Assembly (NCBI GenBank): GCA_017441925.1
Contig: JAFRUE010000007.1
Coordinates: 434,001-498,000, forward strand
From: Bacillota bacterium
GTDB lineage: Bacteria > Bacillota > Clostridia > Lachnospirales > Bianqueaceae
Length of the DNA stretch: 64,000 nt
Reading direction: 5' to 3'
The notes beneath the pieces were generated by a model. That model saw only the letters and a list, made by a program, of their open reading frames with translations, had not been told where the DNA came from and made no database searches. A program made the translations under genes and the position numbers. Position 1 is the first letter of the stretch. Every line of letters starts with the position of its first letter. Of this stretch, positions 54,138-60,106 are shown one piece after another.

Positions 54138-54166
54138 ATTATAGCACAAAATCATTCATTTTTCAA
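54138..54166 (-). promoter_or_regulatory. Promoter of apt
   Basis: Minus strand TTGAAA (54161-54166, inside the end of recJ), 17 bases, TATAAT (54138-54143), about 40 bases before apt. Confidence 0.78.
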
Positions 54167-55889
54167 CGGAAGGACGCATATGAGAAACATTGATCTGCAG
54201 CCGCATCCTCCCCCGGTATACGTTCCAGCCGACATGGTAGCAGATGTCTATTTTAACAGGCTTTTCAAGCGTTCCATCAAAGAAAAGACGCTCCCAGACC
54301 GCTTCGGACGCCGCTTCCGCAATACACTCATGAAGAGCCTCGATCCTGAACGTCACGGTCTCATAGATTTCACCGTCTTTATAAAAGAAAAGATTAGCGG
54401 CTTTCTTCCGGGTACCCATCCAACGGACACGCTGAAGCTCCAGACCTTTATCCGCAAACATCGGATCCGCATTGCCTGTCCCGAACGGTTCAAGCTGTGC
54501 CACGATATCGGCGGTATGCGCGTTCGCATAGTGAAGCGGCATCGCCATATCGATCATTACGACCGGTCTGAGATCCTCTTCTGTCAGACGCGAATTCGCG
54601 TTAAGCCTCTCCCGCAGCTCTCCGATACGGGATTCCTCCATGGATAAGCCGGCAGCCATCGGATGTCCGCCATAACGGCTGAAGCAATCCTGTACCGCGT
54701 TCATCTCCGCGAACATGTCATAAGCAGGGATCGATCGGCCCGAGCCCTTCACTTCACTGCCTGTTCCGGTCAATACAAATACAGGCTTACAGTATTTCTC
54801 CCGGATCTTGCCGGCCACAAGTCCCGCAAGACTCTCGTGAAGCTCCGGCAGATGGATCACCTGGACTGTCTGATCTTCCTGCGCGGCATAGACAGCCATG
54901 GCCTTTTCCACGCCTTCGTCCGTCAGCTTCTGACGCTCTCTGTTCAATTCGTACAGCTTCTTGGCAGCTGTCTCTGCTTTGACCGGATCCTGAGACAGCA
55001 TTACAGAAATATAATTCTGCTGGCTGTCCAGTCTGCCTCCGGAATTGATCATCGGTCCGATAATAAAGCCGAACGCGTAGACGTCAAGCTTCTCACTGCT
55101 TCCCTGACGCATGAGCGCCTGGATCGAAGCCGGCGGGTGCGCATTAAAACGGCGGAGTCCCTGATAGACGATCTTGCGGTTCTCGCCGATCAGTTTCATA
55201 ACATCGCAGACAGTACCAAGCGCCGCATACCCGATCCAGTCCGGATCTTCCGGCATCCCGACAGCCTGCATCAAAGCCCTGGCTGTCTGATAGGCAACAC
55301 CTGCCCCGCACAGATCGCTGAATCCGTACGGATCCGTCTTCTGATGCGGATTGACGACAACATTCGCGGCCGGGAGCTTCTCCTCGCCGTCCTCTTGTGC
55401 AATCGCGTGGTGATCCGTGATGATCAGAGGTATGCCAAGCCTTACAGCGGTCTCGGCAGCTTCAAACTCCCGTATCCCGTTGTCACAGGTGATGATCAGC
55501 CCGTCTCCTCTCCTCACACAGTCTTCGACCATATAAGGACGCATCCCGTAACCGTCTTCCACACGGTCCGGGATCCGCACATGCACAGAAGCTCCTGCTC
55601 TTGTAAGGGCATGATAAAGAATCGTCGAAGAAGTCATTCCGTCGACGTCATAGTCCCCGATCACAGTAATGGTCCTGCCCTGCGCAATCGTTTCCCGGAT
55701 CAGCCGGACAGCCTCCGGCATGCCTTTCATCGTCATCGGATCACGCAAAGGACCCTCTCTGTCAATATAATCAGGAGCACCGTCAGGATCTGTCCTGTTC
55801 GCTATCACTTTAGCGAGGATCGGATCCAGACGGTATCTCTCCTGTATTTCTTTATAACTGCTGCTGCAGATTCTCCAGTTTTCTTTCAA
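54156..55889 (-). CDS. recJ: Single-stranded-DNA-specific exonuclease RecJ
   Basis: 5'-3' exonuclease of recombination and mismatch repair, 577 residues. DHH-family motifs: ITVIGDYDVDGMTSS, then ITCDNG, LIITDHHAIA, CGAGVAYQTARAL and MINSGGRLDS; the DHHA1 region includes RYGGHPMAAGLSME. The start appears to be TTG at 55887-55889 (KENWRICSSSYKEIQ follows). No clear Shine-Dalgarno precedes it, but the gene begins five bases after secDF, so it may rely on coupling. The next in-frame ATG would remove conserved sequence. Confidence 0.93.
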   Translation of the reverse strand: MKENWRICSSSYKEIQERYRLDPILAKVIANRTDPDGAPDYIDREGPLRDPMTMKGMPEAVRLIRETIAQGRTITVIGDYDVDGMTSSTILYHALTRAGASVHVRIPDRVEDGYGMRPYMVEDCVRRGDGLIITCDNGIREFEAAETAVRLGIPLIITDHHAIAQEDGEEKLPAANVVVNPHQKTDPYGFSDLCGAGVAYQTARALMQAVGMPEDPDWIGYAALGTVCDVMKLIGENRKIVYQGLRRFNAHPPASIQALMRQGSSEKLDVYAFGFIIGPMINSGGRLDSQQNYISVMLSQDPVKAETAAKKLYELNRERQKLTDEGVEKAMAVYAAQEDQTVQVIHLPELHESLAGLVAGKIREKYCKPVFVLTGTGSEVKGSGRSIPAYDMFAEMNAVQDCFSRYGGHPMAAGLSMEESRIGELRERLNANSRLTEEDLRPVVMIDMAMPLHYANAHTADIVAQLEPFGTGNADPMFADKGLELQRVRWMGTRKKAANLFFYKDGEIYETVTFRIEALHECIAEAASEAVWERLFFDGTLEKPVKIDICYHVGWNVYRGRMRLQINVSHMRPSVEK

Positions 55890-55894
55890 GATTA

Positions 55895-58255
55895 TTATGC
55901 GGCACGCTTAGCCTGGCGTCCGCCTTTCATAAGCGCCCAGACCGGACCTGCGATCACAAGTGATGAATAGGTGCCCGCAATGAAGCCGGCAAGAAGCGGG
56001 AAGGCAAACCAGCGGATACTGTCGACGCCGAGGATAAAGAGCATCATGACCATCAGGATCGTTGTAATCGATGTAGACAATGAACGTCCCATAGTCTGCT
56101 TGATACTGTCGTTGACCAGCTGCGCCGTCTGGTTTGCACGGTACAGATGCTGGTTCTCGCGTACACGGTCGAATACGACGATCGTATTATTGATCGAGTA
56201 GCCGACGATCGTAAGGATCGCTGCGATGAAGTTGGAGTTGACCGGTACACGGAAGACCGCATAGACCGCGATAACGATGATGACGTCATGCAGCAGCGCG
56301 ATAATAGAGCTCAGGCCGAAGCGCCAGTCATGGAAGCGGATCGTGATATAGATCAGCATCAGAAGCGCTGCGACAAGCGTGGAAACGACAGAAGATGACT
56401 TCATCTCGCCGCTGATCATCGGGCTGATCGAGGACTGGGAAACCAGATTGCTTCCGTCAGGATCCAGGCCGAACTCAACAGCGATCTTGTCATAGAGCTC
56501 ATCCATCTTTGTGGTATCCATCTCTTTGACCTTGATCTGGACATGGTTCTCCTGTCCGGCTCCGCTTACAGACTGCACCATCGGATTGGTATCACCGCTG
56601 ATCTCCTTGACGATCCCGGTCAGCTTGTCGTTGTCATACTCCTGCTCCATATTGATCTGCATCATGGATCCGCCCTTGAAATCGATATCCAGGTTCATGC
56701 CCTTGAACAGGATGAAGCCCAGACCGATGACAGCGATACAGGCCGGAATGACAAGCCAGAGCTTCGTCTTCTCAATAATACGGACAGCCTTGACCTTGCG
56801 GAAGAAATCGGCAGATCTGTAGAGTCCGGTTTTATCCGGCAGGACAGCCGTGATATTCTTAAGGATCAGGTTGGACAGGACCAGCGCGGTAAACATGGAC
56901 AGGACAATACCAAGCGCCAGTGTCAGCGCAAAGCCTTTTACGGTACCGGTGCCCAGGAACCACAAGACACCTGCCGCGATCAGCGTTGTAACGTTACCGT
57001 CGATAATGGCGGACAGAGACTTACGGTAGCCCGAAGCAACCGCGGCCTCAATACGGCGGCCGACAGCCAGCTCCTCATTTACACGGGAATAGATAACTAC
57101 ATTCGCGTCGACAGCCATACCGATGGACAGCAGGATACCTGCGATACCGGGCAGCGTCAGCGTGACGTTGAACAGATTCAGCAGAAGGATCTCCGCGGAA
57201 ATATAGAAGATCAGAGAGATGCTCGCTACAACGCCGGGCACTCTGTAGATGATGATCATGAAGATCAGGACCAGGATGAAGCCGATCAGACCGGCCTTCA
57301 GGCTGGTGGAAAGAGCATCACGGCCGAGCGTAGCGCCAACACTGTTGTGCTCGATGTCTTTCAGTTCGACAGGAAGCGCGCCTCCGCGGATATCGGAAGC
57401 AAGCTGCTTGGCCTCATCCGCGCCGGCCATACCGGTAATGACCGCAACACCGTCATTGATCACAGCGTTTACAGTAGGAATGCTGACGATCGTTTCATCC
57501 AGACGGATCGCGATCTGCTTGTTGAGATAACGCTCCGTTGCGTCAGTGAATTTGTCTTTGCCGGAAGAAGTCAGCGCCAGGCGCACATAATCTTCCGCCA
57601 TACTGGTCTGAGAGACCTGACCGTGCTGTGCGGTCGCGTCAGCAACGTCATCGCCGACCAGAACGATCTCGGCCAGTCCCTGATCGATAGCCTTCTGCAG
57701 GATCTCAGAAGCAGCTTCAGGGAAATAATAAAAACTCGAGCCGGGGTTCGAAAGATACTGAACGACCATATCGCGGACCGTTTCCTTGCTGTAGGTCGAG
57801 TCTCCGGACTGCTCCATATCGGCAAGGACTTCTTCTGTCAGGGTATCGACATATTCATCCGTCAATCCGGCAGAAACCAGACTGTTCCAGTCAAGGCCGA
57901 CAAAGGTCAGCATCGCGGTCTTGCCGATCTGCTTTACAGCTTCATTCGCGTCTGAAACACCGGGAATCTCGACACGGATACGGTTCGTTCCGTCCTGGAA
58001 GCTTGACGCTTCCGTATAGCCGAGCGCAGACAGACGGTTATTGATGATCGCACGCGCGCCGTCCATCTGATTCTGCGTCGGATTGTCCTCTGCGGCCTGA
58101 TAGGTGATGCTGACGCCGCCGGCAAGGTCAAGGCCCAGATGGATATTCTTCATACCGACTCTGGCATTGTCGAGCCCGATAAAAGCAAACAGTGACGCAC
58201 ATGCTATGACTGCCGCGACCAGCAGCAGGATCAGCACATTTTTCATTCTCTTCAT
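55895..58255 (-). CDS. secDF: Protein translocase subunit SecDF (fused SecD and SecF)
   Basis: Membrane motor that helps SecYEG export using the proton or sodium gradient; 786 residues with about 12 membrane helices. The SecD half begins with a membrane helix at 8-28, then GLDLAGGVSITYQ, a periplasmic-type domain and GMAVDANVVIYSRVNEEL. The SecF half has FKGMNLDIDFKGGSMMQI and YSINNTIVVFDRVRENQHL. Fusion is usual in Firmicutes. ATG is preceded by GGAGGAAG. Promoter at 58318-58347. Confidence 0.96.
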   Translation of the reverse strand: MKRMKNVLILLLVAAVIACASLFAFIGLDNARVGMKNIHLGLDLAGGVSITYQAAEDNPTQNQMDGARAIINNRLSALGYTEASSFQDGTNRIRVEIPGVSDANEAVKQIGKTAMLTFVGLDWNSLVSAGLTDEYVDTLTEEVLADMEQSGDSTYSKETVRDMVVQYLSNPGSSFYYFPEAASEILQKAIDQGLAEIVLVGDDVADATAQHGQVSQTSMAEDYVRLALTSSGKDKFTDATERYLNKQIAIRLDETIVSIPTVNAVINDGVAVITGMAGADEAKQLASDIRGGALPVELKDIEHNSVGATLGRDALSTSLKAGLIGFILVLIFMIIIYRVPGVVASISLIFYISAEILLLNLFNVTLTLPGIAGILLSIGMAVDANVVIYSRVNEELAVGRRIEAAVASGYRKSLSAIIDGNVTTLIAAGVLWFLGTGTVKGFALTLALGIVLSMFTALVLSNLILKNITAVLPDKTGLYRSADFFRKVKAVRIIEKTKLWLVIPACIAVIGLGFILFKGMNLDIDFKGGSMMQINMEQEYDNDKLTGIVKEISGDTNPMVQSVSGAGQENHVQIKVKEMDTTKMDELYDKIAVEFGLDPDGSNLVSQSSISPMISGEMKSSSVVSTLVAALLMLIYITIRFHDWRFGLSSIIALLHDVIIVIAVYAVFRVPVNSNFIAAILTIVGYSINNTIVVFDRVRENQHLYRANQTAQLVNDSIKQTMGRSLSTSITTILMVMMLFILGVDSIRWFAFPLLAGFIAGTYSSLVIAGPVWALMKGGRQAKRAA

Positions 58256-58317
58256 TTACAGTAACTTCCTCCGGATTGATAATGGATATTCTATCTCAGT
58301 TCAAAAACACGTTATGA

Positions 58318-58347
58318 ATTATACTCTTATGTATTGGTGCCTGTCAA
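58318..58347 (-). promoter_or_regulatory. Promoter of secDF-recJ
   Basis: Minus strand TTGACA (58342-58347), 18 bases, TATAAT (58318-58323), about 63 bases before secDF. Confidence 0.8.
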
Positions 58348-58369
58348 GAAGCGCATCGGCATCTGCGGC

Positions 58370-59614
58370 TCAATTGCCGTAAAGGAGCCTATCCGCCAAA
58401 GCGTCAAATTCCGCAGAACTCTTGCTGCTCAGGATCGTGACCTGTCCCTTGTGATCCGTTCCGCGCATGATCCCGGCCTCCGCAAGCTGTCTTCTGAGCT
58501 CTCTGGCCGTTCCTTCGCTGCCGTCGTAGATCGTTACGGATCCTCCGGCAGCTTTGCGGATCGCATCTGACAGGAACGGATAATGCGTACATCCGAGTAC
58601 AATGGAATCAGCCGGCAGATACGGTCCAAGCAGGTCAGCAAGGAAACTGTCGAGTTCATCCCCTTCCAGAACGCCGCGTTCCACGAATTCCATCAGCCCC
58701 TGGCTCGGCACTTTGAGAATTCTTGCTTCACGGCTGTAGGTATCCATCAAAGCCGCGAATTTATTCTCCTGCAGGGTCATCGGTGTTGCCATGACAAGGA
58801 TCCGTCCTCCGGCAGAGTTAAGGACCGCAGGCTTTAAAGCCGGTTCAACGCCGATAACAGGCATATAATCGTATTGTTCGCGCAGACGGTTGATGCAGAC
58901 GCTCGTCGCCGTATTGCAGGCAACAGCGATCGCCTTAACTCCCCGCTCCACCAGATATGCCACATTTTCAAAGCAGTATCTCTGCACATCCTCCGGCGTC
59001 TTGGTGCCGTACGGTGCGTGCAGTATATCGCCTCGGTACAGAAAATCCTCAGCCGGCATCAGACGTATCATTTCTTTCAGGACACTTAATCCGCCAAGAC
59101 CGGAATCGACGATCCCGACCGGCGCGTCGGCATTCTGTGAGAAAGTGATATCCTGGAAGTTGAAAAGCTTCTTCTCCAGGATCCTTGCGGCCTGTTCCAG
59201 TCCCTCCTGATCCTCCGGACGGAACCGACCTGTCTCAAAACTGTCCAGATCGAGGACTCCCATCACCCGTCCGTTCCGGTTATGCAGCGGAATCACGATC
59301 TCGGAATTGGAGGCAGCGTCACAGGCGATATGCCCCGGGAACGCATGTACATCCTCAACACGGATCGTCTGATCCTGCTGCCAGGCTGTTCCGCAGACGC
59401 CTTTGCCCTTCGCGATCATCGTGCAGGCGGGTTTGCCCTGAAACGGTCCGAGGGCCAGCTCACTGCCCCGTACGAGATAGAATCCTGCCCAGTTCAGAGC
59501 AGACAGATTCTGATAGATCAAAGCGGATGCGTTCGACAGACCGGTCTCCACAGGCTCGGTCACGTCGATCAGCATATCGAGGGATGCTAATAACTCTTTA
59601 TAGTTATCCGGCAA
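58370..59614 (-). CDS. murI: Fusion: free methionine-(R)-sulfoxide reductase GAF domain + glutamate racemase
   Basis: Two enzymes in one chain of about 414 residues. Residues ~1-150 are the fRMsr-type GAF domain: NWAGFYLV, LGPFQGKPAC, GVCGTAW, FPGHIACDAASNSEIV, GVLDLDS. The three cysteines keep the spacing (10 and 24 residues) of the E. coli enzyme. From ~164 glutamate racemase begins (APVGIVDSGLGGLSVL) with both catalytic cysteines, ACNTAT (~Cys233) and GCTHYPF (~Cys342). The racemase supplies D-glutamate for peptidoglycan; the reductase would repair free Met-R-SO. I prefer TTG at 59612-59614, with AAAGGGTG six bases upstream; the ATG at 59633-59635 sits directly on the tRNA terminator and has no ribosome site. 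Confidence 0.9.
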   Translation of the reverse strand: MPDNYKELLASLDMLIDVTEPVETGLSNASALIYQNLSALNWAGFYLVRGSELALGPFQGKPACTMIAKGKGVCGTAWQQDQTIRVEDVHAFPGHIACDAASNSEIVIPLHNRNGRVMGVLDLDSFETGRFRPEDQEGLEQAARILEKKLFNFQDITFSQNADAPVGIVDSGLGGLSVLKEMIRLMPAEDFLYRGDILHAPYGTKTPEDVQRYCFENVAYLVERGVKAIAVACNTATSVCINRLREQYDYMPVIGVEPALKPAVLNSAGGRILVMATPMTLQENKFAALMDTYSREARILKVPSQGLMEFVERGVLEGDELDSFLADLLGPYLPADSIVLGCTHYPFLSDAIRKAAGGSVTIYDGSEGTARELRRQLAEAGIMRGTDHKGQVTILSSKSSAEFDALADRLLYGN

Positions 59615-59637
59615 TGTTTTCACCCTTTCTGTCATAA

Positions 59638-59666
59638 AAAAACGGTGCTGCAATACAGCGGCACCG
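59638..59666 (-). terminator. Terminator of the tRNA operon
   Basis: Minus strand CGGTGC / GCACCG stem with a 12-base loop and seven T. It ends about 23 bases before the racemase fusion start, for which I found no other promoter, so that gene may depend on read-through. Confidence 0.7.
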
Positions 59667-59675
59667 CGTGAGTTA

Positions 59676-59747
59676 AGCGCGAGACGGGATTCGGACCCGC
59701 GACCCTCGCCTTGGCAAGGCGATGCTCTACCCCTGAGCCACTCGCGC
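59676..59747 (-). tRNA. tRNA-Gly (GCC)
   Basis: Complete cloverleaf of 72 bases without CCA. Acceptor GCGCGAG pairs CTCGCGC, discriminator U. The anticodon stem-loop has GCC within TTGCCAA. The T-loop reads TCCGAAT instead of TTCGAAT, so position 55, normally pseudouridine, is C. Confidence 0.92.
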
Positions 59748-59751
59748 ATAG

Positions 59752-59825
59752 TAGCGGAGGACAGATTTGAACTGCCGACACCGCGGGTATGAACCGCGTG
59801 CTCTCGCCAGCTGAGCTACTCCGCC
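59752..59825 (-). tRNA. tRNA-Met (CAT), elongator-like
   Basis: 74 bases without CCA. Acceptor GGCGGAG pairs CTCCGCT with a G-U at the end. The anticodon arm is CGCGG TTCATAC CCGCG. It lacks the C1-A72 mismatch and the three G-C pairs of initiators and resembles the B. subtilis elongator tRNA-Met. Confidence 0.9.
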
Positions 59826-59856
59826 AAACAATAGATCTGATCTGTTCTCAGGATCA

Positions 59857-59872
59857 CTCGCCAGGAGAACAG

Positions 59873-59873
<1 letters not shown>
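59857..59873 (-). other. Hairpin in the spacer between two tRNAs (59836-59873)
   Basis: Between tRNA-Asp and tRNA-Met the spacer forms an 8-bp perfect stem (CTGTTCTC with GAGAACAG) around a 15-base loop. It has no T-run, so it is more likely an RNase processing or spacing element than a terminator. Confidence 0.45.
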
Positions 59874-59946
<73 letters not shown>

Positions 59947-59947
59947 A

Positions 59948-60021
59948 TGGGCCCTCAGGGACTCGAACCCGGGACCGACCGGTTATGAGCCGGCTGCTCT
60001 GACCAACTGAGCTAAAGGCCC
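59948..60021 (-). tRNA. tRNA with CAT anticodon, probably tRNA-Ile2 (lysidine-type)
   Basis: 74 bases without CCA. Acceptor GGGCCTT pairs AGGGCCC (one G-U). The anticodon loop is CTCATAA. The body (GCTCAGTTGGTCAGAGCAG, then CCGGCTCATAACCGG) resembles Ile2 tRNAs more than the elongator tRNA-Met in the same cluster, so C34 is probably changed to lysidine by TilS. One T-stem pair (C-U) is mismatched. Met identity cannot be excluded. Confidence 0.8.
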
Positions 60022-60027
60022 CTAGAA

Positions 60028-60099
60028 TGACCCCCAGGAGAATCGAACTCCTGTTTTCGCCGTGAGAGGGCGACGTCTTAGCCGCTTGACCAGGGGGCC
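60028..60099 (-). tRNA. tRNA-Glu (CTC)
   Basis: 72 bases without CCA. Acceptor GGCCCCC pairs GGGGGTC, discriminator A. The anticodon loop contains CTC (CCTCTCACG region), the rarer Glu isoacceptor; the usual TTC form is not in the window. First gene of the tRNA operon. Confidence 0.92.
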
Positions 60100-60106
60100 A
60101 TATGCA

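Follow-up and report, generated by a model that had tools for sequence, protein, structure and literature searches.

The minus strand of the analyzed stretch of 64,000 nucleotides (hereafter the window) carries a single gene in which a free methionine-(R)-sulfoxide reductase of the GAF type (fRMsr) is joined to a glutamate racemase (MurI). The fusion was confirmed to be real, and it is conserved within a single small group of uncultured bacteria resembling Clostridia. The best explanation, to which we give a probability of roughly two in three, is a bifunctional enzyme whose two domains work essentially independently; both the activities and the independence of the domains are what we infer from the sequences. 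The product would consist of two complete enzymes in one polypeptide with a short linker between them: the N-terminal fRMsr would use its cysteines to reduce free L-methionine-(R)-sulfoxide, and the C-terminal cofactor-independent glutamate racemase would make D-glutamate for peptidoglycan. The gene has the following features (window coordinates):

58370..59635 (-): fusion gene fRMsr-MurI, 421 aa plus stop; alternative starts GTG 59623 and TTG 59614
59162..59611 (-): fRMsr GAF domain, residues ~9-158
59423-59425 (-): fRMsr Cys71
59393-59395 (-): fRMsr Cys81
59321-59323 (-): fRMsr Cys105
59126..59161 (-): inter-domain linker, residues ~159-170, varying between relatives
58373..59125 (-): glutamate racemase (MurI) domain, residues ~171-421
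58916-58918 (-): MurI catalytic Cys240
58589-58591 (-): MurI catalytic Cys349

The stretch 59749..58370 (-) is a single open frame, and translation from the ATG at 59635 gives 421 aa with no internal stop. The 5' end given in the earlier note corresponds to an in-frame TTG at 59614 (residue 8), which is preceded by a Shine-Dalgarno-like AGAAAGG; the choice among the candidate starts at 59635, 59623 and 59614 leaves both domains unaffected. Neither in the genome of the window (G000) nor in that of its closest fused relative (G002) was an ATG, GTG or TTG present from 25 codons before to 14 codons after the junction, which makes a separate MurI translated from near this point unlikely.

The N-terminal half has a GAF fold of the YebR/fRMsr kind. 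The Pfam GAF model matched residues 47-154 with 45.6 bits, above its cut-off, a phmmer search of residues ~9-158 against solved structures retrieved E. coli YebR (1vhm, E 1e-42), S. aureus fRMsr (3ksf) and similar GAF proteins, and a Foldseek comparison of the N-terminal half of the AF2 model with 3ksf gave a TM of 0.95 and an rmsd of 1.1. Cysteines 71, 81 and 105 are spaced 10/24, matching the fRMsr family, as the earlier note had read from the DNA, and we take them to be the equivalents of Cys84, Cys94 and Cys118 of the E. coli fRMsr; they were invariant in all four fused proteins, and across 102 aligned fRMsr rows C71 was conserved in 101 and both C81 and C105 in every row. Also present, and conserved in 102 of the 102 rows, were W49, Y53, E112, D129 and D131, presumably the Trp, Tyr, Glu, Asp and Asp of the substrate site. 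Shared with fRMsr/MsrC proteins (E. coli YebR, S. aureus 3KSF) are thus the GAF fold, ~50-60% identity, the three-cysteine spacing and the substrate-site residues; the difference lies in the glutamate racemase attached C-terminally, while the other fRMsrs examined here stand alone.

The C-terminal half is a complete MurI with both catalytic cysteines, again in agreement with the initial reading. The NCBIfam glutamate racemase model TIGR00067 covered residues 173-413 with 180 bits (cut-off 146.65), Pfam Asp_Glu_race scored 58.7 bits (above cut-off), and phmmer with residues ~170-417 retrieved bacterial MurI among the solved structures. The two-domain MurI fold was recovered in the AF2 model, with a Foldseek TM of 0.89 to 5hj7. 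Cys240 lies in the motif ACNTAT and Cys349 in GCTHYP, both being kept in all covering rows, and the half has D177, S178, D203, C240, T242, E264, C349, T350 and H351, which hardly vary across 46 rows; in the B. subtilis MurI the two catalytic bases are Cys74 and Cys185 (PMC8142540). A chance overlap of open reading frames was ruled out, the family models exceeding their cut-offs. The half has in common with MurI/RacE (M. tuberculosis 5HJ7, B. subtilis 1ZUW) the fold, the TIGR00067 assignment, the catalytic cysteines and the Asp/Glu/His residues, and differs from them in bearing a 160-aa N-terminal enzyme domain. The N-terminal extension of the E. coli MurI is only a short one.

In the family set of 19 genomes, the fused frame without stops was present in four, of which three (G000, G001 and G002) belong to one genus and the fourth (G005) to a second genus, with identities to the window protein of 60% (G001), 83% (G002) and 57% (G005). 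In a further member of the second genus (G009) the gene neighbourhood is the same, but the contig breaks off within the MurI half. The G001 record (JAFRZL010000030.1) is a metagenome-assembled genome from goat omasum. Each fused genome gave a single MurI match and a single fRMsr match, both inside the fusion. The surroundings of the gene in the window are as follows:

59676..60100 (-): tRNA cluster (Gly, Met, Asp, Met, Glu), directly upstream of the fusion
59643..59666 (-): hairpin, followed by T7 (59636-59642), a probable terminator of the upstream tRNA cluster
55895..58255 (-): SecDF as a single chain, the downstream neighbour of the fusion
54156-55889 (-): recJ, after secDF

The upstream tRNA-Gly was common to all four fused genomes, and the downstream secDF-recJ order was conserved in all of them. 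The T-run after the hairpin abuts the first ATG (59635) of the fusion gene; the same layout was found in G002, while it was shifted in G001 and G005. With the layout of G000 and G002, the fusion gene may rely on read-through from the tRNA promoter. SecD and SecF form one chain of 786-813 aa in G000, G001, G002, G005 and G009 (e.g., L189, 7314-9676), making secDF another case of gene fusion at this locus; in the sister genus g2 (G003, G007) they are encoded by separate adjacent genes. A gene for a PHP-domain protein is located between the fusion and secDF in G002, G005 and G009 (L052, 7899-8747; L050, 10067-10939); it is absent from the window (58256-58369), and G001 has an unrelated 367-aa gene instead.

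No other fusion was found in about 1,650 genomes drawn from the order, class and phylum and from two other classes. In a scan of contigs from 84,980 genomes, the G001 record was the only fused one among the best 80 matches listed, and a first genome-contig scan yielded nothing. None of the plasmid and phage records covered 80% of the fusion protein, and the single relative among viral contigs matched the fRMsr half only, with no fusion. Several long frames were considered as further fusions and rejected: among the MurI candidates in G038, G047 and G056, L202 and L203 were MurI of normal size and the 447-codon frame in L204 was an unremarkable upstream read-through, and, of the fRMsr candidates in G013 and G016 (frames of 313-347 codons), the former was an ordinary fRMsr in a long frame and the fRMsr of the latter was identical. 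A fusion of glutamate racemase with a methionine sulfoxide reductase or GAF domain was not described in the open literature searched, within which the protein is apparently undescribed; the earlier note likewise did not know it as a described protein. The novelty is in the domain combination, both component enzymes being already known. The known Msr fusions (PilB MsrA-MsrB of Neisseria and archaeal MsrAB) also have a methionine sulfoxide reductase joined to another enzyme, but in them it is combined with redox or repair domains, whereas the present protein pairs an Msr of the free-methionine type with an enzyme of cell-wall precursor synthesis.

The alternatives to a bifunctional enzyme with independently working domains differ in what they make of the join and of its two halves. 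The assemblies are drafts, at least one of them metagenome-assembled, and an assembly or sequencing artefact might in principle have joined two adjacent genes; however, the identical join recurred in four assemblies at 57-83% identity, with the same neighbours and without stops, and such an artefact can practically be dismissed. The single chain proposed in the earlier note has therefore held up: no frameshift separates the halves, the frame being intact in G000, G001, G002 and G005, and relatives from two genera are fused, while in genera g2, g3 and g5 of the same family the fRMsr and MurI genes are separate and located on different contigs. The dN/dS ratio between G000 and G002 was ~0.08 for the fRMsr half and ~0.06 for the MurI half, with synonymous changes partly saturated; by this measure, both halves are under purifying selection. 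That one half is a passenger which has lost its activity is very improbable given this selection, the retention of all catalytic residues and the lack of a second copy of either enzyme in the fused genomes.

More weight was given to a possible coupling between the halves. The AF2 model of the full chain had a mean pLDDT of 93.1, dipping at the linker to a mean of 64 over residues 161-170, and a pTM of 0.79, which suggests some degree of preferred domain arrangement; in the input alignment, MurI-only rows had their first ~12 residues misplaced, with the confidence visibly unaffected. A conserved inter-domain contact or a linker specific to the fusion was looked for in the fused proteins and not detected: the linker identity was 13-40% outside the closest pair (G000/G002), and the fixed residues specific to the fusion and rare in stand-alone homologues were limited to Q218 and G32, i.e., one per half. 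Unfused control clades of similar divergence had 0-3 lineage-specific residues, the exception being the remote sister-genus MurI with 33 such residues, which is a different MurI type. The variable linker and the lack of excess in fusion-specific residues over the unfused controls give no sign of an evolved inter-domain switch and favor the bifunctional reading with independent domains, in which it would have been the adjacency of the genes and their co-expression, and not an evolved regulatory contact, that fixed the fusion. This argument is drawn from an absent signal in four or five sequences, and a regulatory contact could use residues that are already conserved.

The same results weakened the proposal of the earlier note that the fRMsr half could protect or gate the racemase, or report the redox state to the D-glutamate supply. 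In a specific form, this half would hold the cysteines of the racemase in the reduced state, or would switch the racemase activity through its own disulfide state, so that the supply of D-glutamate would track the redox conditions. Such a role is in line with the requirement of MurI for two cysteine thiols (PMC8142540), the S-CoAlation of MurI in oxidised S. aureus cells (PMC5989533), the inclusion of B. anthracis racE-1 in the disulfide-stress regulon of Spx (PMC3831629) and the reported induction of Msr enzymes by wall antibiotics in S. aureus (PMC4334518); in addition, the fusion sets the ratio of redox enzyme to racemase at 1:1. It is nevertheless unlikely, given that the substrate of fRMsr is the free R-isomer of methionine sulfoxide and not protein thiols (PMC6210582, PMC6211008), that neither the linker nor the fusion-specific residues bear a trace of it, and that the cysteine CoAlated in the S. 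aureus MurI (CPYG) is replaced by alanine here (APYG). Taken more broadly, as a coupling of oxidation or of free methionine sulfoxide to the D-glutamate supply via the racemase cysteines, whether by protecting or by switching, the idea is still rather doubtful. Alternatively, the GAF half might bind methionine-(R)-sulfoxide or methionine and tune the racemase allosterically, like signalling GAF domains. The retained substrate-site residues of the GAF fold, the pTM value and the fact that MurI enzymes are known as allosteric targets (PMC8142540) speak for such ligand sensing, but with all of its catalytic cysteines kept the half looks like an enzyme and not like a bare sensor, and no fusion-specific conservation was found, so that we regard it as quite improbable.

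Natural fusions often mark a functional link, and through the pairing found here an essential step of cell-wall synthesis, which is also a drug target, would be tied to the repair of oxidised free methionine. If the redox half did guard or switch the racemase, an early step of peptidoglycan precursor synthesis would be redox-controlled, and such direct control could be tested on one protein and on its separated halves. If the halves have no more than a promoter and a chain in common, the gene is a neat example of fusion in one lineage.

The two halves have different affiliations. The N-terminal half is similar to the fRMsr of the family at large and of other Clostridia, and in the fRMsr tree the fused halves formed one clade (support 85) among Clostridia fRMsrs, with weak deep branches. 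The MurI half had about 44-52% identity to a MurI type scattered across other families and classes and only 31-38% to the MurI of the sister genera; in the MurI tree, the fused rows together with G009 formed one clade (support 99) within that other-family type. Since the N-terminal half is family-like and the C-terminal half is unlike the sister-genus MurI, a murI that was either foreign or differentially retained probably landed behind an fRMsr gene beside the tRNA-Gly locus, after which the two adjacent genes would have been joined in frame. In g2 and g5, murI is located between ddl and DUF1934, and in the fused genomes ddl adjoins DUF1934; the order ddl-murI-DUF1934 is seen in L059 and L062, and ddl-DUF1934 in L194, L198 and L088. 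An origin of the fusion through loss of murI from a ddl-murI-DUF1934 operon was dropped as a firm claim, because ddl also stands beside DUF1934 in the unfused G004 (g3). The genome of the window also encodes a D-amino-acid-transaminase-like protein (L199, 1393-2235; TIGR01121, 221 bits, below the cut-off of 277), which could be another source of D-glutamate, and the fused MurI may not be the sole one. Overall, this one family contains at least three sequence types of murI, located in three different parts of the genome, suggesting that this cell-wall gene was repeatedly replaced or differentially lost.
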